Shown in pieces: positions 20,924 to 29,744 of a DNA stretch of 64,000 bases. The notes below the pieces were generated by a model. The model was not told the DNA's origin and did no database searches. It saw nothing but the letters and a program-made list of their open reading frames with translations. The stretch is from contig SXOA01000029.1 in NCBI GenBank assembly GCA_005778405.1, positions 1-64,000 on the forward strand, in the 5' to 3' direction. The DNA is from Planctomycetaceae bacterium (lineage in GTDB: Bacteria; Planctomycetota; Planctomycetia; Pirellulales; Pirellulaceae). A program made the position numbers and the translations under genes. The stretch's first letter is position 1; each line of letters starts with the position of its first letter.

Positions 20924-21048
20924 ATGTAGGCCGTCTTTCCAAGACGGCTGGGAAGGTGCGTGGCGCTCGGTAAGCAGTCGTTTCGCGAAAAAACGTTCCT
21001 CAAGATTCGACGACCACTCCTGGCCGTCTCGGAGAGACGCCCTACTTA
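20924..21048. repeat. GTAGGcCGTC...GACGcCCTAC long palindrome, copy A
   Basis: An intergenic element of about 125 bases bounded by GTAGGCCGTCTTTCCAAGAC at the left and CCGTCTCGGAGAGACGCCCT at the right, with a central TTTCGCGAAA palindrome. It shares this layout and several blocks (CGTCTTTCCAAGACG, TTCGCGAAA, CACTCCTG) with the element at 63059. It lies between convergent EF-G-like and korB genes, so a bidirectional terminator role is possible. Confidence 0.8.
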
Positions 21049-22062
21049 TCCCACCGTCCACGTCTCGCCGCTGTTGTAGAGGGCGTTGAGGTCTCCTTCC
21101 CCCTTCTTCTCCCGGGCGGCAGTGATCTGGCGATTGAGCTCGACGTCGTACTTGGGGCCGTCCACATCGCGGAACACGCCGATCGGCTCGGGGAATTCCG
21201 GATGCCGCATGCGGCTGAGGAGGTAGGCCAGAGTGGGCTCAGGGGCTTTCTCGTCATGGAAGAGGAGGTCATCCTCGGAGATTCCTTTGCCCAGCTCAAC
21301 GACTTCGGGATGAGTGCCGTTGAGGCGGATTCCCTTGTTCTTGGCCTTGCCAAAGATGAGGGGCTTGCCATGCTCAAGCTCCAGGACGTTGTCGTGCTTG
21401 GTCTCTTTGCTGGTGGCGTAATCCCAGGCTCCGTCGTTGAAGACGTTGCAGTTCTGGTAAATCTCGATGAAGGCGGTTCCCTTGTGCTCGGCGGCCCGCT
21501 TCATCACTTCGCCCAGATGCTTGATGTTCACGTCGATGGAGCGGGCGACGAAAGTCGCTTCGCAGCCGATGGCGACGGAAAGAGGATTGAGAGGGTTATC
21601 GATCGCCCCCATCGGCGTACTGACAGAGACTTTGCCCAGCGGGGAAGTAGGTGAATACTGCCCCTTGGTCAGGCCATAGATGCGGTTGTTGAAGAGCATG
21701 ATCTTGAGATCCACGTTGCGGCGAATCAGATGCATGAAATGGTTGCCGCCAATGGAGAGACCATCCCCGTCACCGGTAACGACCCACACCTGCAAATCCT
21801 GGCGGCTCGATTTCAGACCCGTGGCGAAAGCCGGGGCCCGCCCGTGGATGCTGTGCAGGCCGTACGTGTTCATGTAGTAAGGAAACCGGCTGGAGCAGCC
21901 GATGCCAGAGATGAAGACGACGTTCTCGCGGGCAACGCCGAGCTGCGGCATCACCTTCTTCATCTGGGCGAGAATCGCATAGTCCCCGCAGCCGGGGCAC
22001 CAGCGGACATCCTGGTCGGAAGCAAAATCGGCGGGAGTCAGGGTCGGGAGTTCAGTGGGCAT
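21046..22062 (-). CDS. korB: 2-oxoacid:ferredoxin oxidoreductase, beta subunit
   Basis: Thiamine-diphosphate-binding subunit of a 2-oxoglutarate/2-oxoacid:ferredoxin oxidoreductase, which converts a 2-oxoacid, CoA and oxidised ferredoxin into acyl-CoA, CO2 and reduced ferredoxin, reversibly. The 338 residues show WCPGCGDYAIL (21-31) with iron-sulfur/TPP-associated cysteines, GIGCSSRFPYY (53-63) and the ThDP/Mg motif GDGDGLSIGGNH (97-108) followed by NNRIYGLTKGQYSPTS. It lies downstream of the alpha gene, separated only by a repeat. The 2-oxoglutarate preference (kor) is a guess from the GLTKGQxSPT pattern; other 2-oxoacids are possible. Confidence 0.92.
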   Translation of the reverse strand: MPTELPTLTPADFASDQDVRWCPGCGDYAILAQMKKVMPQLGVARENVVFISGIGCSSRFPYYMNTYGLHSIHGRAPAFATGLKSSRQDLQVWVVTGDGDGLSIGGNHFMHLIRRNVDLKIMLFNNRIYGLTKGQYSPTSPLGKVSVSTPMGAIDNPLNPLSVAIGCEATFVARSIDVNIKHLGEVMKRAAEHKGTAFIEIYQNCNVFNDGAWDYATSKETKHDNVLELEHGKPLIFGKAKNKGIRLNGTHPEVVELGKGISEDDLLFHDEKAPEPTLAYLLSRMRHPEFPEPIGVFRDVDGPKYDVELNRQITAAREKKGEGDLNALYNSGETWTVG

Positions 22063-22069
22063 GGTGAGT

Positions 22070-22125
22070 TTTCAGTTTTCAGTGTTCAGTGTTCAGATTT
22101 CATTCGTCATTCGAATTTCGTCATT
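22070..22125. repeat. TTCAG tandem plus half of the CATTCGTCATT palindrome, copy 2
   Basis: Short tandem units TTTTCAG / TGTTCAG at about 22069-22096 lead into CATTCGTCATTCGAATTTCG-TCATT, the right half of the family seen at 17834. The final TTA of the element is the korA stop codon (minus strand). The matching left arm is missing, so this copy looks truncated. Confidence 0.75.
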
Positions 22126-24073
22126 AGCCACCGGCGTCTCCACTCCCGGCAATTCCCGACACGGCGGCGGTTGCCGTCGGCTTCGACCCGTTCGCGCTGG
22201 CCAGGCCAAGCTGTCCGCGGATGGCGGCGACGACTTCCTGGACGAAGAACGGGCGTCCCTGGATCTTGTTGAGCCCCTGGGCATCGACCAGGTACTTGGA
22301 GCGGATGATCATCCGGAGCTGTCCCTTGTTGAGCTCGGGGACGAGAACTTTCTTGTATCGCTTGAGGACGTCTCCCAGGTTTCGCGGGAACGGGTTGAGC
22401 CACCGCAGGTGCGCGTGAGCGACCTTGATCCCTTGCTCCTGGCATTGCTCCACGGCGGTCTTGCAGGCACCGTAAGTGCCACCCCAACTGAGCACGAGCA
22501 AGTCGCCGGTCTCCGGCCCTTCCACTTCCTGCAAGCCGATAAGCTGGGCGACGTTATCGACCTTCTTTGCTCGAGTGTGGACCATGTGCTCGTGGTTCTC
22601 GGGCTCGTAGTTCACGTTTCCGGTCACGTCCTGCTTTTCCAGACCGCCGAGACGATGCATGAGTCCCTTGATGCCCGGGATGCCCCAGGGACGAGCCAAC
22701 AATTCGTCCCGCTGATAGGGCTTGAATTTCTCGCCGTTTTCGCTCGGAACGGGATGGTGAATCGGGATTTTTTCCAGCTTGTTGTAATCGGGAATTAGCC
22801 ACGGTTCGCTGCCGTTGGCAATGTAGCCGTCAGACAGGACCATCACCGGCACCATCATGCGGCTGGAGATCCGCCAGGCTTCGATAGCCGCGTCAAAACA
22901 GTCGCCAGGGCTGCGAGCGGCGATGACGGGCATCGGCGACTCACCATTGCGGCCGAGAATCGCCTGGAATAGGTCAGCTTGCTCGGTTTTTGTGGGAAGT
23001 CCAGTGCTCGGTCCGCCGCGCTGAATATTAATGACGAGGAGAGGCAGCTCCAGCATGATGGCCAGGCCAATTCCCTCCCCCTTGAGGGCGATGCCGGGAC
23101 CGCTGGAAGTGGTGATGCCCATAGCGCCGCCGTAGGCCGCGCCGATGGCCGAACAGACAGCGGCGATTTCGTCTTCCGCCTGGAAAGTTCGCACGCCGAA
23201 GTTTTTGAACTTGGAAAGCTCGTGCAAAATGTCGCTGGCCGGAGTAATCGGATACGAGCCGAGGAACAACTCCTTGCCGCTCAGCTTGGCCGCGGTCATC
23301 AAGCCCCACGCCATCGCGGTATTCCCCTTCATGTTCTTGTACTTGCCCGGGGGGAGTTGGGCAGGCTCCACCTTGTAGCTGCTGGTAAAAGCGTCGGTCG
23401 TTTCGCCATAATTCCAGCCCGCCCGCATGGCCTTGGTGTTTGCGGCAATGATCTCCGGCTTATTGGAGAACTTCGACTGTAAATAGCGAAGGGTCGGCTC
23501 CTGGTCCCGTCCGTAGAGCCAATAGACCAATCCCAGCGCGAAGAAGTTCTTGCAGCGGTCAACCTCCTTGGTTCCCAGACCGGTGTCTTTCAGGGCTTCT
23601 CGCGTGATCTTCGTCATCTGCACTTTGAAGAGCTGGTACTGATCCTCCAGAACCTGGCTATCGAGCGGGTTGACATCGTAGCCCGCCAGATCCAGGTCGC
23701 TCTTCTGAAAGTTGTCGCTGTTGCAAATGAGGATGCCACCCTTCCGCAAGTCGCGCAGGTTCGTCTTGAGAGCGGCCGGGTTCATCACGACAAGCGCGTC
23801 GAGAGTATCTCCGGGCGTGAAAATGTCTTCGCTGGAAAAATGGACTTGAAAACCGGAGACACCGGCCAGCGTGCCGCGGGGAGCACGAATCTCAGCCGGG
23901 TAATCAGGGAAAGTGGCCACGTCGTTCCCCAGCAGGGCGGACGTGCTGGTGAACTGGTCCCCAGTGATTTGCATGCCGTCCCCGGAGTCGCCACAAAAGC
24001 GGATCGTCGCGCTGGGGACCGGATTGACTGTCTTGGGATTTGCTACTTCTGGCTCAGCCGTAGTGGTGGTCAT
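22124..24073 (-). CDS. korA: 2-oxoacid:ferredoxin oxidoreductase, alpha subunit (gamma-alpha fusion)
   Basis: The 649-residue chain joins an N-terminal gamma domain (RFCGDSGDGMQITGDQ, then FPDYPAEIRAPRGTLAGVSGFQVHFS, about 15-190) to the alpha (pyrimidine-binding) domain from about 240 (GNTAMAWGLMTAAKLSGKELFLGSYPITPASDILHELS; GISTSSGPGI-like TTSSGPGIALKGEGIGLA; RGGPSTGLPTKTEQADL). It partners with KorB. The ATG at 24073 is taken; an in-frame TTG nine bases upstream has a better-spaced AAGGG and is a real alternative. The gene is downstream of a CBS protein on the same strand (196-base gap), which could sense adenine nucleotides. Confidence 0.93.
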   Translation of the reverse strand: MTTTTAEPEVANPKTVNPVPSATIRFCGDSGDGMQITGDQFTSTSALLGNDVATFPDYPAEIRAPRGTLAGVSGFQVHFSSEDIFTPGDTLDALVVMNPAALKTNLRDLRKGGILICNSDNFQKSDLDLAGYDVNPLDSQVLEDQYQLFKVQMTKITREALKDTGLGTKEVDRCKNFFALGLVYWLYGRDQEPTLRYLQSKFSNKPEIIAANTKAMRAGWNYGETTDAFTSSYKVEPAQLPPGKYKNMKGNTAMAWGLMTAAKLSGKELFLGSYPITPASDILHELSKFKNFGVRTFQAEDEIAAVCSAIGAAYGGAMGITTSSGPGIALKGEGIGLAIMLELPLLVINIQRGGPSTGLPTKTEQADLFQAILGRNGESPMPVIAARSPGDCFDAAIEAWRISSRMMVPVMVLSDGYIANGSEPWLIPDYNKLEKIPIHHPVPSENGEKFKPYQRDELLARPWGIPGIKGLMHRLGGLEKQDVTGNVNYEPENHEHMVHTRAKKVDNVAQLIGLQEVEGPETGDLLVLSWGGTYGACKTAVEQCQEQGIKVAHAHLRWLNPFPRNLGDVLKRYKKVLVPELNKGQLRMIIRSKYLVDAQGLNKIQGRPFFVQEVVAAIRGQLGLASANGSKPTATAAVSGIAGSGDAGG

Positions 24074-24269
24074 GACTGGCAATCTGCCCTTTTGAAATCA
24101 GTGTTCGCGTGAATTTTAGTTTTATCGGCGGCCGCTCGTAGGGCGGCGGAATGTCTCTTGGCAAAGGCCCGGCAAACGGGTCAATCAGTATCGGACTTTC
24201 TGAATAATAACTCTATTTGGAATGTACGGCCCGAAAAACGGACCGATTTGTAACGAAAATGAGGGCTGT

Positions 24270-24734
24270 TTATCCCCCGTCCCGTTCTTCCATCTTGTGG
24301 TGTGGCGAGGGGGGCAAAGTGTAAATAATCCGGGGAAAATGCTCGACCAGAAAGCGGAGCACCCCAGCCACCCCCACCACCCCGGTTACATGCCCCTGAC
24401 CGTCCACAATCGGAACCTGGCGGAACTTGCCGCTGGACATCAAGGAAATCGCCTTTCCCACGCTTTCGCTCATCCGCATGGAGACCGGCTGACGGACCAT
24501 GGCGGTGGAAACGGGCACATCCAGGTCGCTGCCGTCCGCTAATTGCTTGAGCGCGTCCCGCTCGGTAAAAATGCCTTCCAGCTTCCCTTCGCGGCAGACC
24601 ATTGCAGCGCTCGTGGCGCTCGATTTGAGCACGCGCATGACATGGCGAATGCTGTCACTGGGCAGTACACAGACCGGCTTGGTCGGATGAGCCTGCTCGA
24701 CCGACTCGGTCTCAAGATGAAGCTGAAAATCCAC
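24270..24734 (-). CDS. Two-CBS-domain protein
   Basis: A 154-residue protein made of paired CBS domains (about 15-70 and 75-135): VCVLPSDSIRHVMRVLKSSATSAAMVCREGKLEGIFTERDALKQL, then VSTAMVRQPVSMRMSESVGKAISLMSSGKFRQVPIVDGQGHVTGVVGVAGVLRFL. CBS pairs bind adenosine nucleotides and usually regulate a partner. The start is GTG (24732-24734). It lies first in a minus-strand series with korA and korB and head to head with the fwd cluster, so control of either is possible but unproven. Confidence 0.88.
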   Translation of the reverse strand: MDFQLHLETESVEQAHPTKPVCVLPSDSIRHVMRVLKSSATSAAMVCREGKLEGIFTERDALKQLADGSDLDVPVSTAMVRQPVSMRMSESVGKAISLMSSGKFRQVPIVDGQGHVTGVVGVAGVLRFLVEHFPRIIYTLPPSPHHKMEERDGG

Positions 24735-25173: not shown

Positions 25174-25509
25174 ATGACTACCAAACGGTTTATCCTCAAT
25201 TCTTCCCGGAGTTCGCAGCAAGGAGCGTTGATCAACGTGGGGAAGGAATCGCCAGAGTATTTGGCGCTGACCAATTCGATGACGATGGCCCAAAAGGACA
25301 TGGCGGAAATCGGTCTGGCGGAGGGTCAGATGGCGATGGTTCGCACCGAGTTTGGCGAAGCACCTTTCAAGTGTGAGTCCGGGAAAGTGCCTGAAGGGAT
25401 GATTTTTGTTCCCTACGGTCCCCCCACGTGTAAACTGATGGGTGGAGACACGGGCGGCACCGGAATGCCAACCTCCAAGGGTTGGGAAGTCGAAGTCGTT
25501 CCCTTATAA
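25174..25509 (+). CDS. fwdD: Formylmethanofuran dehydrogenase subunit D-like (molybdopterin dinucleotide-binding)
   Basis: The 111-residue protein is the separate molybdopterin-dinucleotide-binding subunit of Fwd/Fmd. Its C-terminal segment GMIFVPYGPPTCKLMGGDTGGTGMPTSKGWEVEV follows the FwdD pattern (GMVFIPxGPxxN...TGMPxFKG), and RTIEQG-like SRSSQQGALINVGKESPEY opens the family. The D subunit completes the active-site clamp over the metal with subunit B. It is absent from the metal-free Fhc complex of aerobic methylotrophs, so its presence supports a true dehydrogenase. First gene of the cluster; fwdB follows after 405 bases containing one possible small gene. Confidence 0.85.
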   Translation: MTTKRFILNSSRSSQQGALINVGKESPEYLALTNSMTMAQKDMAEIGLAEGQMAMVRTEFGEAPFKCESGKVPEGMIFVPYGPPTCKLMGGDTGGTGMPTSKGWEVEVVPL

Positions 25510-25581
25510 TTGCAGCCGCTCGGCTGTCACGGACGATTTTTGGAATTATGGATTCGTGGTGGTCCGCAGAGGATTCTCAGC

Positions 25582-25743
25582 ATGCTTCAAAAACCAGTTC
25601 TCGAGTCACCGGCCGGATCGGACGGACCTCATTTTTCCTTTGCGGAAGAGGGGGCAAGCGTAGCGGGCTGGACCGAGATCGAAGCGGGTCGATTCATGCC
25701 TCGCCGCGTGCGCGGCAGCTATCAGGGACGGGCACTGGGCTGA
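25582..25743 (+). CDS. Possible small protein between fwdD and fwdB
   Basis: A 53-residue frame beginning with ATG after AGAGGATTCTCAGC (a weak but plausible ribosome site). The C-terminal half is strongly basic with the pattern GWTEIEAGRFMPRRVRGSYQ followed by GRALG. It reads like a genuine short protein: codons are GC-biased like the neighbours. I have an impression that this ending recurs in short planctomycete proteins, but I cannot name a family. No function proposed. The remaining bases 25744-25914 show nothing recognisable. Confidence 0.4.
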   Translation: MLQKPVLESPAGSDGPHFSFAEEGASVAGWTEIEAGRFMPRRVRGSYQGRALG

Positions 25744-25914
25744 GTGTTTACCGTTCCCTCGTCCGGTTCGGACGACACACAGTGCCAAGAGAAGCAATAA
25801 CAACAACAGCGATTTTGAGGAAAGGTAATCACGCCGCAGACCGGGTAAACTGCCGGCAACTAACTGTTGCCCACCGGAATGCGATCGTGAAGCCTACGAT
25901 CATGAACCATCTCC

Positions 25915-27255
25915 ATGGAACTTCAGGTAATCAATAACGCCACGTGCACGTTTTGCGGCTGCGTTTGCGACGACATTCAACTCCATCATGACGACGTTCG
26001 CATCCACAAGGCGAACAAAGCCTGCGTGCTGGGAACCGCCTGGTTTCTGAACCACACGGCAGAAAAAAAATATCCCGACGCCCTGATTGATGGCCGGGAA
26101 GCGACTCTGGACGAGGCGATTGAAGCAGCCGCCAATTTCCTCTACGAAGCCGACATGCCGCTGGTCTACGGCATGAGCAACACGACCTGTGAGGCTCAAA
26201 AGGAATGTGTCGCCCTGGCGGACCAGCTCGGGGGGCTGCTCGACAGCCACACTTCGTTGTGACACGGTCCCACCGAGATCGCCGCCCAGTTGGGCGGCAA
26301 AGTTACTTGTACGCTGGGCGAAGTCAAACAACGAGCCGATTTCATCATCTACTGGGGAGGGAATCCCGCGGAGTGCCATCCACGGCATTTCACCAAGTAC
26401 ACCATCATGCAGAAGAGCAAGTTTCTGCCCCGCGGCCGCAAGGACCGCACGATGGTGCTGGTCGATATCCGCGAAACCAAGAGCGCCAAAGCCGCCGACA
26501 TTTTTCTGCAGGTGCGGCCCGGCAAGGACTTCGAGTTGATCACCATCCTCCGGGCTCTCATTAAGGATCGGCAGGTCAGCGACCAGGCGATTGCGGAGAC
26601 GGGCCTGACGCGGGAGGTGATCGACGACCTGATCCGGCGGATGAAGGGGGCCAAGTTCGGCTGCGTATTTTTTGGGATGGGGCTGTCCATGACGCGCGGC
26701 AAGCACATGAACAGCGCCGCGCTGCTCACGCTGGCCGCGGAAATGAACGCCTTCACCAAGTTCGTGGCCATGCCCATGCGAGGCCACGGCAATGTCACAG
26801 GTGCCGACGTCATCATGCGGTGGCAGACCGGCTATCCCTTCGGAATTTCCTTTAGCCGCGGCTATCCGCGCTATAATCCCGGCGAGTTCTCCACCGTGGA
26901 CGTGCTGGTTCGCGGCGACTGCGACGCAGCTTTCATCATTGGAGCCGATCCCGGCGCGACAATGCCCCAGCCGGCGATTGACCACCTGAAGCGGATTCCG
27001 ACCATTGTGCTGGACCCGCACGTCACGCACACCAGTAAGCTGTCGCGGGTCCACATCACCACGGCTCCACAGGGAATCGCCGCACCGGGAACGGCTTATC
27101 GGATGGACGAGCTTCCCATGCCATTGAAACCCGCCCTGAAATCCCCGTACCCTTCCGATGAAGAAGTCGTCCGCCGGATTAACGAGGCGATTGCCAAAAA
27201 GCCGTTCTGGCTCCCCGACGGAAGTCAGCCCCAGATGCTCAACGCACAGGTATAA
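25915..27255 (+). CDS. fwdB: Formylmethanofuran dehydrogenase subunit B, selenocysteine-containing (in-frame TGA at 26260)
   Basis: Catalytic subunit that would reduce CO2 to formate (or oxidise formate) at a Mo/W-bis-pterin centre, with FwdA handling formate and the C1 carrier. Read as one frame of 446 residues, the N-terminus has a [4Fe-4S] motif Cys11-x2-Cys14-x3-Cys18 ... Cys37 (CTFCGCVCDD; KACVLG). TGA codon 116 lies in HTSL-U-HGPTEIAAQ; in FwdB/FmdB the metal ligand at this spot is Cys or Sec, next to a conserved His-Gly-Pro. The downstream frame stays open and conserved to 27255 (DFIIYWGGNPAECHPRH; RPGKDFELI; YWGGN). A hairpin of bacterial SECIS form follows the TGA. Alternatives: a nonsense mutation or base error. 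Split annotation as 25915-26262 and 26290-27255 would be wrong if Sec is inserted. Confidence 0.85.
26260..26298 (+). promoter_or_regulatory. UGA selenocysteine codon with bacterial-type SECIS hairpin
   Basis: TGA 26260-26262 is followed by a perfect 7-bp stem GCCGCCC (26281-26287) / GGGCGGC (26292-26298) closing the tetraloop AGTT (26288-26291). Twenty-five bases separate the TGA from the loop, and a G is the second loop base; bacterial SECIS elements lie within the coding sequence just after UGA with a short stem and a G early in a small apical loop. Archaeal SECIS elements lie in untranslated regions instead, so this form fits a bacterial SelB. Confidence 0.75.
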
Positions 27256-27264
27256 TCCCACTCC

Positions 27265-28905
27265 ATGCTTCGCATCACGGGCGGAAAAGTCTACGACCCA
27301 GCCAACGGCATCGACGGCGTCGTCAAGGATCTGTGCATCGACGACCAGGGCCTGTTCGTTCCCGCGGTGGAAGGTGGCCGAACGATCGACGCGACAGGAA
27401 TGATTGTCTTTCCCGGCGGCGTGGACGTTCACACGCACGTGGCCGGCGGCGCGATCAATTTCGCCCGAGCCATGACGCCGGAGGATCATCGCCGCACCCA
27501 GGCGTTCATTCGCACCAAGTCGCGCCGCAGTGGATTGGGCGGCATGGCCCCCACCACCTTCGCCACCGGCTATCTCTATGCCGGCATGGGCTGGACAACG
27601 GTCAACGAAGCGGCTGTGCCGGTCCTATCCGCCCGGCACACGCACGAAGAGCTGGCCGATATTCCAATTGTGGATAAAGCTTCGCTGACGCTGATGGCGA
27701 ACAACGAGATCCTGCTCGATCAGCTCGAAAAGGGAGAATTCGAGCGTGCCAAGCAGGTTCTCGCCTGGTATCTCTGGTCGGCCAAGTCCTACGGCATCAA
27801 GGCGGTCAATCCGGGCGGAGTCGCGGCTTGGAAATATGGCCACGACGCCAAGCAGCTCACGTCACCCATTGATGGCTACAGCAAGCTGACCCCCGGCGTG
27901 ATTGTGACTCACCTCGCCCGGATTTGCGATGAGCTTGGCCTGCCGCATCCGGTCCATTTGCACTGCAACAATCTCGGCGCTCCCGGCAACATCTCGACGA
28001 CAATCGACACTCTAAAGCACCTAGAAGGGCACCGGGCCCACATTGCCCATTCTCAGTACCACGCCTACGGCGGCGATGGCTGGGACACCATGTGCTCGGA
28101 AACGGCTCAGCTTGCCGAATACTTCAACGCCCATCCGAGCATCACGACCGATGCGGGAGCCGTCTTGTTCGGCGACACGGTGACCATTACCGCTGACGGA
28201 CCATGGCAGCACCTGCTGTACAAGCTGACCGGGCGGAAATGGGGGAACCTGGACGTCGAAAACGAAACGGGCTGCGGCATCGTCCCCTACACCTACCGCC
28301 CCAGCAACCTCGTCAACGCGGTGCAATGGGCGGCTGGGCTGGAGCTGCTGCTGCTCATCAAGAATCCGTGGCAAGTATTTCTCTCCACCGACCACCCCAA
28401 CGGCGGCTGCTTTTGGCGGTATCCGGAGATTATCGAGTTGCTGATGCGGGCGGATGTTCGCAAAGAATCCCTTCTGAAACTCCCCGACGGCATCAAGGGA
28501 AAAATCACGCTGCCGGAGATTGACCGCGAGTATTCGCTCTATGAAGTCGCCATCTCCATGTCAGCCGGCCCGGCGCGGGCGCTGGGGCTGTTCCAAAAGG
28601 GCAACCTTGGCCTGGGCTGCGATGGCGATGTGGTGATTTATGAAGAAGACGAAAACGTGCGGAAAATGTTCGGCCATCCGCGCTATGTCATCAAAGGAGG
28701 GGAGATCGTGCTGGAAGACGGCGAGATTCGTGAAGCGCCGTCAGGACGCGAGTTCATCGTGAAACCGCCATGCGACCCCGGCATCGACGATTTCATGAGG
28801 CCGCTGTTCGAGGACTGCTACACCATGTCGTTTGAGAACTATCCGGTGGAAATGGAGCGCATCCACAACCCCAGGATGCAAGACTGCATCGAAGTGCCAC
28901 GCTAA
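27265..28905 (+). CDS. fwdA: Formylmethanofuran dehydrogenase subunit A (amidohydrolase)
   Basis: A 546-residue amidohydrolase-superfamily subunit with a binuclear metal site that interconverts formate plus the amine C1 carrier (methanofuran or a bacterial analogue) and the formyl carrier. Visible ligands: His56 and His58 in GVDVHTHVAGG, a candidate carboxylated Lys179 in GIKAVNPGG, HLHCNN (231-236), RAHIAHSQYHAYGG (257-270) and STDHPNGG near 400. Length and motifs match FwdA/FhcA. It begins nine bases after fwdB ends, so the two are clearly one operon. The carrier in planctomycetes is inferred. Confidence 0.95.
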   Translation: MLRITGGKVYDPANGIDGVVKDLCIDDQGLFVPAVEGGRTIDATGMIVFPGGVDVHTHVAGGAINFARAMTPEDHRRTQAFIRTKSRRSGLGGMAPTTFATGYLYAGMGWTTVNEAAVPVLSARHTHEELADIPIVDKASLTLMANNEILLDQLEKGEFERAKQVLAWYLWSAKSYGIKAVNPGGVAAWKYGHDAKQLTSPIDGYSKLTPGVIVTHLARICDELGLPHPVHLHCNNLGAPGNISTTIDTLKHLEGHRAHIAHSQYHAYGGDGWDTMCSETAQLAEYFNAHPSITTDAGAVLFGDTVTITADGPWQHLLYKLTGRKWGNLDVENETGCGIVPYTYRPSNLVNAVQWAAGLELLLLIKNPWQVFLSTDHPNGGCFWRYPEIIELLMRADVRKESLLKLPDGIKGKITLPEIDREYSLYEVAISMSAGPARALGLFQKGNLGLGCDGDVVIYEEDENVRKMFGHPRYVIKGGEIVLEDGEIREAPSGREFIVKPPCDPGIDDFMRPLFEDCYTMSFENYPVEMERIHNPRMQDCIEVPR

Positions 28906-28928
28906 CTGTGCTTGCCGGGAAGTCAGGA

Positions 28929-29744
28929 ATGCCCATCACCTTTCACCTCAAACGCCAGCCCTCGGTTCCCCTGGAGTCCGAGGTCTTCTCGCCGGATGTC
29001 ATGGCGGAGCTGACCAATACCGAAATCCGTGCACTCACCATCTATCACGGCAAACGGCAGCTCCCCATCAGCGACTTTTTTGACGTCGAAGGGGAACGGA
29101 GCGAAGACCTGGTGATGCATGGCGCGATGCACAAGGTCCGCTGGATTGGCCGGGCCATGTCCAGGGGGAGCATCACCGTGCATGGCACGGTCGGGATGCA
29201 CCTGGGAGCCTACATGAAGGGGGGCCGCATCGAGGTCCACGGCAACGCCAGCGACTGGATCGGAGCCGAAATGAAGAATGGCTTCATCCACGTCCACGGC
29301 AATGCCGGCGGGCAGATTGGCGCCGCTTACCGCGGCTCGATGCAGGGGATGAAAAACGGCACCATCATCATCGACGGTTCAGCAGGGCTCGAAGTCGGCA
29401 TGCGGATGCGTCGGGGAACGATCATCGTCGGCGGCCCCGCCAAGGACTTCACCGGCCTGCAAATGAAAGGGGGGACCATTGTCCTGATGAGCGGCGCCGA
29501 AATCCGCACTGGCGCCTGGATGAACCGCGGCACCATTATCTCCCTCAAGCCGCTGCAACTGATGCCCACCTTCGTCCGCTCGGTGGACGCCAGCCCCATG
29601 TTTGTGAACGTCCTGGCCAAGAATCTCAAATCGCTTGGAATCAACTTGCCCCACAAGGCCAGCGAGGGGACTTACCGGCAGTTCGCGGGGGACCTGAGTG
29701 TTTCTGATAAGGGGGAAATCCTGGTCTGGCAACCCGTTGCATAG
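28929..29744 (+). CDS. fwdC: Formylmethanofuran dehydrogenase subunit C
   Basis: Structural subunit with a right-handed beta-helix related to the glutamate synthase GXGXG domain. The 271 residues contain the repeating pattern GxxxHGxxGxxxGxxMxxGxI, such as GSITVHGTVGMHLGAYMKGG, GRIEVHGNASDWIGAEMKNG, GFIHVHGNAGGQIG and GTIIIDGSAGLEVGMRMRRG. The ATG at 28929 (AGTCAGGA upstream; MPITFHLK) is preferred to the GTG at 28908. It closes the D-B-A-C series; no formyltransferase (Ftr/FhcD), polyferredoxin (FwdF/G) or mch gene follows within the window. Confidence 0.93.
   Translation: MPITFHLKRQPSVPLESEVFSPDVMAELTNTEIRALTIYHGKRQLPISDFFDVEGERSEDLVMHGAMHKVRWIGRAMSRGSITVHGTVGMHLGAYMKGGRIEVHGNASDWIGAEMKNGFIHVHGNAGGQIGAAYRGSMQGMKNGTIIIDGSAGLEVGMRMRRGTIIVGGPAKDFTGLQMKGGTIVLMSGAEIRTGAWMNRGTIISLKPLQLMPTFVRSVDASPMFVNVLAKNLKSLGINLPHKASEGTYRQFAGDLSVSDKGEILVWQPVA

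Follow-up and report, generated by a model that had tools for sequence, protein, structure and literature searches.

What kind of formylmethanofuran dehydrogenase does a planctomycete encode? The question is raised by a 64,000-nucleotide stretch of DNA from a Planctomycetaceae bacterium (GenBank assembly GCA_005778405.1, contig SXOA01000029.1, positions 1 to 64,000 of the forward strand; here called the window), which lies on contig C12 and carries a cluster of fwd genes; the genome, 6.11 Mb in size, is assembled in 203 contigs. The product could be a redox enzyme of the archaeal kind or a hydrolytic complex such as Fhc. The explanation that we favor, with a probability of roughly 0.83, is that the cluster would be the operon of a selenium-dependent, archaeal-type formylmethanofuran dehydrogenase, probably oxidative, which is accompanied by a small second selenoprotein. 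It rests on comparison of gene content, of TGA conservation, of constraint and covariation in the predicted selenocysteine insertion sequence (SECIS) elements, of coding signal past the TGA of the small gene, and of FwdB phylogeny; from these we infer the insertion of selenocysteine, the activity of the complex and its direction, and what the small protein does.

The original prediction described a D-B-A-C cluster. All four genes are confirmed, but the order is fwdD-fwdX-fwdB-fwdA-fwdC, operon-like and all on the + strand, a small gene that we provisionally name fwdX having been missed. The genes are as follows.

25174-25509, + strand: fwdD, small molybdopterin-dinucleotide-binding subunit (Pfam PF01568, NCBIfam FwdD NF042908, PDB FwdD chains)
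25582-25800, + strand: fwdX, small open reading frame of 72 codons with an in-frame TGA at codon 54
25915-27255, + strand: fwdB, Mo/W-bis-pyranopterin-guanine-dinucleotide catalytic subunit, 446 codons long, codon 116 being TGA
27265-28905, + strand: fwdA, binuclear-metal amidohydrolase subunit (TIGR03121)
28908-29744, + strand: fwdC, beta-helical scaffold subunit (TIGR03122)

FwdB matches the NCBIfam model TIGR03129 at 496.6 bits (cut-off 327.8). Under the standard code the gene falls into two open reading frames of 115 and 321 codons; when the TGA between them is read as a residue, a single 446-residue FwdB results, with the motif DSHTSL-U-HGP. Archaeal FwdB has Cys at this position, or X in one PDB chain (9sfi_Q). 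The earlier claim that FwdB retains four cysteines and the metal ligand thus holds for the four cysteines, but the ligand codon is TGA, a predicted selenocysteine (Sec), and not a cysteine codon. Two elements of fwdB are important here.

26260-26262, + strand: in-frame TGA at the metal-ligand position, predicted Sec
26281-26298, + strand: SECIS-like hairpin GCCGCCC-AGTT-GGGCGGC, from its minimum free energy (MFE) fold and synonymous constraint

A gene split in two under the standard code is what a nonsense mutation or an assembly error in a decaying pseudogene would produce. In one scan, a genome collection at species level yielded 433 FwdB relatives, nearly all labelled Planctomycetota, and in the best 80, which were kept, the ligand codon is TGA in every case, down to 73% identity. 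This conservation rules the pseudogene out. The active-site residues are also invariant, with H117 and H291 kept in 84/84 Sec-type FwdB sequences, and Sec machinery is encoded, so that we regard the chance of a decaying gene as practically nil. A search of 294 genomes of the phylum for close FwdB with one in-frame TGA returned three other genomes, G266 (90% identity), G117, and G148 (both 72%).

The hairpin of fwdB begins 18 nucleotides 3' of the TGA. Its folding z-scores are -3.11, -2.15, and -1.06 in 45, 51, and 69 nucleotides, respectively; as the signal weakens in the two longer stretches, folding energy alone is modest evidence. Constraint on the codons is stronger evidence for a SECIS element. 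We compared synonymous variation across 84 fwdB coding sequences, over the 178 columns where the amino acid is conserved and degenerate. The three lowest columns are codons 124 (GCC), 125 (CAG), and 126 (TTG), which form the loop and upper stem of the hairpin. Codons 125 and 126 are invariant in 84/84 sequences and are the sole columns of the 178 without synonymous variation, while the remaining Leu columns vary. An Rfam scan of the window gave no match.

The genome has the machinery that such a codon would need. A tRNA-Sec is found at 65.5 bits, to which ARAGORN assigns the anticodon TCA, together with SelB (368 bits) and SelA (558 bits). In a set of 20 genomes chosen for the presence of FwdB-like matches, tRNA-Sec exceeds 65 bits in each of the four genomes whose FwdB is of Sec type and also in G130, where FwdB is of Cys type; it is borderline in G061 (50.6 bits), and the remaining 14 give no match above the cut-off. 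Taken together, the comparisons argue that UGA116 of fwdB is decoded as Sec. Separately, ARAGORN reports a "tRNA-Stop" (anticodon tta) at the start of contig C45 of the same genome (L005:55-143), which may be a mis-call.

The gap between fwdD and fwdB contains a block that is conserved in nearly all loci, and this block is the open reading frame fwdX. The gene was found in 76 of the 80 loci, and its read-through product in the window is MLQKPVLESPAGSDGPHFSFAEEGASVAGWTEIEAGRFMPRRVRGSYQGRALG-U-VFTVPSSGSDDTQCQEKQ. It has the same two elements as fwdB.

25741-25743, + strand: in-frame TGA, predicted Sec
25759-25775, + strand: SECIS-like hairpin TCGTCC-GGTTC-GGACGA, from comparative pairing, loop 21 nucleotides 3' of the TGA

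The simplest alternative is that TGA54 is a true stop, so that the peptide ends ...GRALG and the hairpin is an RNA regulatory element for fwdB, either an attenuator or a selenium-responsive leader. A TGA beside a hairpin could indeed serve as a selenium sensor, and the stretch that follows the TGA is of widely variable length (12-55 triplets including the stop). Yet TGA is the first in-frame stop in 76/76 loci, whereas it makes up 37-62%, depending on the gene, of the ordinary stops of fwdD, fwdB, fwdA, and fwdC and of the second stops of fwdX; uniformity of this degree is beyond what would be expected, even with kinship allowed for. Codon positions tell against a true stop as well. In 38 nearest-neighbor pairs, changes at the three positions within the 15 nucleotides 3' of the TGA number 33/23/78 (p=3e-9), whereas the counts 3' of the next stop, 103/133/120, have no codon pattern. 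Translation of the frame therefore appears to continue beyond the TGA.

The hairpin of fwdX shares the loop type [AG]GT with that of fwdB and lies at a similar spacing, which likewise speaks against a regulatory element at a true stop. Its loop, mostly [AG]GTTC or GGTCC, is placed 18 or 21 nucleotides 3' of the TGA in 77/77 sequences. Among 43 distinct hairpins 95% of cells are paired, as against 86% after shuffling and 26-59% for slid structures, and 34 cells have changed on both sides, compared with 14 in the shuffles, none of 500 shuffles reaching that number. The position of the gene bears on a leader in cis: the order is D-X-B in 72/72 loci with fwdD, but in four loci X lies about 1.5 kb from fwdB and still stands beside fwdD, which disfavors such a leader. 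Four loci have X without a match to D in the piece, and four have neither. In the complete genome of K23_9 (L106), fwdX begins a few nucleotides after the fwdD stop. A true stop with a regulatory hairpin is thus improbable, and fwdX appears to encode a second selenoprotein of the same operon.

What might FwdX be? The protein is small and Arg-rich, with one predicted Sec in the motif RGSxxGRxLG-U-xFxxP, and across 36 aligned sequences W30, G36, R37, P40, R42, G45, S46, G49, L52, G53, Sec54, and F56 are invariant. Searches of Pfam and the PDB returned no match, those of NCBIfam one chance match only (carbamate kinase, E 0.25, for one relative), and those of PHROG two single-member matches (E 0.017 and 0.039) that we take as chance. 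The AlphaFold2 model is of low confidence (mean predicted local distance difference test score 61.8) and contains only a hairpin at residues 30-40. FwdX fits no recognizable motif or domain among the 119 prokaryotic selenoprotein families in a 2026 list (PMC13188914), its LG-U-xF being unlike any recognized entry, and we found no earlier report of the gene in the literature consulted. It always lies 3' of fwdD in the Sec-type loci retrieved, and no significant match was found near Cys-type fwdB in the loci examined. For this reason FwdX is most likely a small subunit of the Sec enzyme or a factor for maturation or protection of its cofactor, and the constant place after fwdD favors a role with the FwdBD module. 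We lean, with some reserve, toward the further view that FwdX may be the first representative of a selenoprotein family not yet catalogued, and the obligate small partner of the planctomycete selenium-dependent formylmethanofuran dehydrogenase, whether as subunit, as electron-transfer adaptor replacing FwdF/G, or as maturation or protection factor of the metal site, which would place two selenoproteins in one complex.

The original prediction took the complex to be of redox type, and the phylogeny agrees. In a midpoint-rooted tree of 46 FwdB sequences, five of them archaeal from the PDB, the window FwdB lies within a Sec clade (support 100/100), which adjoins Cys-type planctomycete FwdB with weak support (89/86). 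With a support of 100/98, both planctomycete types group with the five archaeal FwdB and fall outside the FhcB-like grade, within which long branches (L041, L039/L040) make the branching order unsure. Site residues point the same way, although not those first proposed. The window FwdB has the four [4Fe-4S] cysteines, as do all aligned Sec-type relatives that have those columns; the B subunit of Fhc had been said to lack these ligands, but planctomycete FhcB-like proteins retain all four even where the metal ligand is Gly, Ser, or deleted. The four cysteines are therefore rejected as a mark of redox competence. On comparison of the sequences, it is the metal ligand and the equivalent of His290, a residue near the metal in the archaeal enzyme (PMC11656701), that do appear to mark it. 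This His (H291 in the window) is present in 84/84 Sec-type and 5/5 Cys redox-type sequences, and it is lost in the aligned FhcB-like proteins except for the very divergent L041.

FwdD, which the original prediction correctly listed, gives PDB matches to 2ki8 (E 3e-15) and 5t5i (E 9e-13), a Pfam match to PF01568 (E 1.1e-8), and a match to NF042908 of 64.9 bits (E 7.6e-18) that is below the curated cut-off of 175. Within the 20-genome set, FwdD accompanies redox-type FwdB in 9/9 cases and occurs in 0/11 genomes that lack this type. An Fhc-type complex would have an FhcB without metal ligand and no FwdD; here the ligand codon is TGA and FwdD is present. A redox enzyme would also depend on synthesis of its Mo/W-bis-pterin, the absence of which could have spoken against the prediction; MoaA is present, moaA being the gene of that pathway that was covered. 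The assignment of the predicted complex to the archaeal redox-type formylmethanofuran dehydrogenases, and not to Fhc, is supported, with redox activity predicted from the archaeal grouping, the four cysteines, ligand residue, and His290-equivalent, and the presence of FwdD.

Other copies of these proteins deserve mention in their own right. A second FwdB in the same genome (contig C178, L048:8948-10267) keeps the Cys ligand and has its catalytic His replaced by Tyr. In other FhcB-like copies the ligand is changed to Gly or Ser or is deleted, which reads as graded decay of the metal site. In G266, a gene that adjoins fwdD and points away from it encodes a 776-aa protein weakly similar to FwdB (L049:11482-13812, E 1.3e-6); the product is probably another molybdopterin oxidoreductase.

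FwdA matches TIGR03121 at 657 bits (cut-off 392.75) as well as PDB chains, and its metal ligands His56, His58, Lys179, His233, His262, and Asp376 are conserved in all aligned relatives (up to 64). FwdC matches TIGR03122 at 264.7 bits (cut-off 130.65) and the PDB chains 9sw6_K, 9sfi_R, and 5t5i_C.

Which pathway could the complex serve? As the original prediction noted, neither Ftr nor Mch is encoded nearby, both giving no match on contig C12. The formyltransferase and its pathway are not missing, however. Elsewhere in the genome there are two Ftr (confirmed with NCBIfam), one Mch that adjoins a RimK/MptN-like ligase, two Fae, and MfnB, and an Ftr like the copy on C177 is found in 27 of the 80 loci, directly 5' of fwdD in most of those. 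The genome also has second copies of FwdA, FwdC, and FwdB, the last adjoining moaA. Because of these copies and the Ftr encoded elsewhere, a separate Fhc-like A/B/C/Ftr set is likely. Sequence does not decide the direction in which the window complex runs, but because Fae, Mch, Ftr, and MfnB are present, it most likely oxidizes formyl-methanofuran to CO2.

The opposite direction, in which CO2 is fixed as formyl-methanofuran with ferredoxin as the donor, has a candidate partner close at hand. KorAB, the beta and alpha subunits of a 2-oxoacid:ferredoxin oxidoreductase, is encoded upstream of fwdD at 21046-24082 on the - strand, and the archaeal homologues reduce CO2 (PMC11656701). Against this, a same-strand search for KorA near fwd gave no match in the 45 relatives whose upstream sequence was long enough, and neighbor clustering shows no conserved Kor, on which grounds KorAB was rejected as a linked electron partner. 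Moreover, Fae and Mch suit formaldehyde oxidation, and the Lys64 gate of FwdA, itself a speculative idea (PMC11656701), is lost. A reductive role is therefore unlikely. Between KorAB and fwdD, a 154-aa open reading frame (24270-24734, - strand) resembles a CBS-domain protein and gave no NCBIfam match at 1e-15.

How the enzyme might work can be drawn from its archaeal counterparts, in which FwdBD (CO2/formate) is coupled to FwdAC (formate/formyl-methanofuran) by an internal cavity (PMC11656701). In the planctomycete, SelB and tRNA-Sec would read the hairpin just 3' of UGA116 and place Sec in FwdB, where Sec116 would ligate Mo or W. FwdBD would then catalyze the step between CO2 and formate, in either direction, and FwdA together with FwdC that between formate and formyl-methanofuran. 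In the oxidative direction Ftr would transfer the formyl group from formyl-tetrahydromethanopterin (formyl-H4MPT) to methanofuran, FwdA would free formate inside the cavity, and Sec-FwdB would oxidize it to CO2. Electrons may leave through the [4Fe-4S] cluster of FwdB to an acceptor that we propose to be soluble since no FwdF/G is encoded nearby. The second, Fhc-like A/B/C/Ftr set would hydrolyze formyl-methanofuran to free formate.

Several observations weigh against this reading. The genome is a draft, 91.65% complete, and the 80/80 counts describe the nearest relatives and not bacterial FwdB as a whole. Variation in the stem of the fwdB hairpin is mostly one-sided. For the fwdX hairpin of the window, the single-sequence MFE prefers another fold, so the case for its SECIS element rests on comparison. 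An electron partner is also lacking from the locus, as had been anticipated for a polyferredoxin: the ferredoxin motif CxxCxxCxxxC is absent from all frames of the window and none is tied to the operon in the 80 loci, although FwdF/G were not searched genome-wide. Finally, at the position equivalent to Lys64, Sec-type FwdA has Ala or Ser in 64/64 cases (Ala63 in the window), while Lys is kept in the aligned archaeal FwdA and in the second FwdA of the window genome. The loss was rejected as proof of an oxidative direction, since 8rja_A, which we take to be the enzyme of the ethane-oxidizing archaeon treated in PMC11656701, keeps the Lys and on that assumption runs oxidatively. Lys64 has been proposed, speculatively, as a formate gate in M. 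wolfei that traps formate for condensation (PMC11656701).

The last two of these observations would fit a complex that is hydrolytic in physiology, releasing formate like Fhc and retaining the metal site for a minor activity, the more so as H4MPT-linked one-carbon (C1) transfer is known in planctomycetes (PMC5020050). Pure hydrolysis, however, would have no need of Sec at the metal site, of the His, or of FwdD, all of which are kept in the Sec-type relatives, and the genome already has its separate Fhc-like set. We hold a hydrolytic role to be doubtful, and prefer the selenium-dependent redox enzyme.

That enzyme has known relatives. The window FwdB matches PDB chains of the archaeal tungsten FwdABCD(FG) complex (5t5i and related) with E values from 1e-110 to 2e-92, and shares with the archaeal system the Fe-S cysteines, the ligand position, the His290-equivalent, the FwdA metal ligands, FwdD, and FwdC. 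It differs in having an operon with fwdX, a predicted bacterial-type SECIS just after the UGA, the replacement of Lys64 in FwdA by Ala (Ala or Ser in relatives), and no FwdF/G nearby. Fhc of Methylorubrum extorquens (PDB 6s6y) is homologous in its A, B, and C subunits and shares the H4MPT pathway context of the window genome, and it is this complex that the second A/B/C/Ftr set resembles. The FhcB of 6s6y, of 361 aa, aligns from about residue 50 of the planctomycete FhcB-like queries, that is, without the Fe-S region; by contrast, both the Fe-S region and the ligand are present in the window FwdB, which is accompanied by FwdD and lies outside the FhcB-like group.

A Sec-containing enzyme of this type is not new, since a selenoprotein fmdB has been reported for the planctomycete P2 (Rhodopirellula sp.), whose fmdD-fmdB-fmdA-fmdC operon has the D-B-A-C subunit order in common with the window (PMC4807772). 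The P2 genome has a second FmdB in Cys form, and the closest relative is a Lake Washington fosmid (PMC4807772). In that report, its supplementary selenoprotein table aside, we found no mention of a gene or second UGA between fmdD and fmdB, of codon constraint or covariation in the SECIS, or of a link between FwdD and redox-type FwdB (PMC4807772). FwdB (UHxP), as "formylmethanofuran dehydrogenase subunit B", is likewise among the 119 selenoprotein families (PMC13188914). According to a review, Planctomycetes have no fwdD (PMC5020050); its presence in 9 of the 20 genomes examined and in most Sec-type loci contradicts this. New here is the conserved second candidate selenoprotein gene, fwdX, in the operon, Sec at the metal site being already known in one planctomycete.

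The results suggest that planctomycetes of several families are able to oxidize (or produce) formyl-methanofuran directly by means of a selenium enzyme of the sort that methanogens use, besides the hydrolytic Fhc, and the route by which C1 units are oxidized in these bacteria becomes a directly testable question. Standard gene calling easily truncates or skips both TGA-containing genes, so that annotation could overlook the enzyme. If FwdX is what it appears to be, it would represent a further selenoprotein family, with a role open to genetics, and it raises the question of why a selenium enzyme should have a selenium-containing companion.

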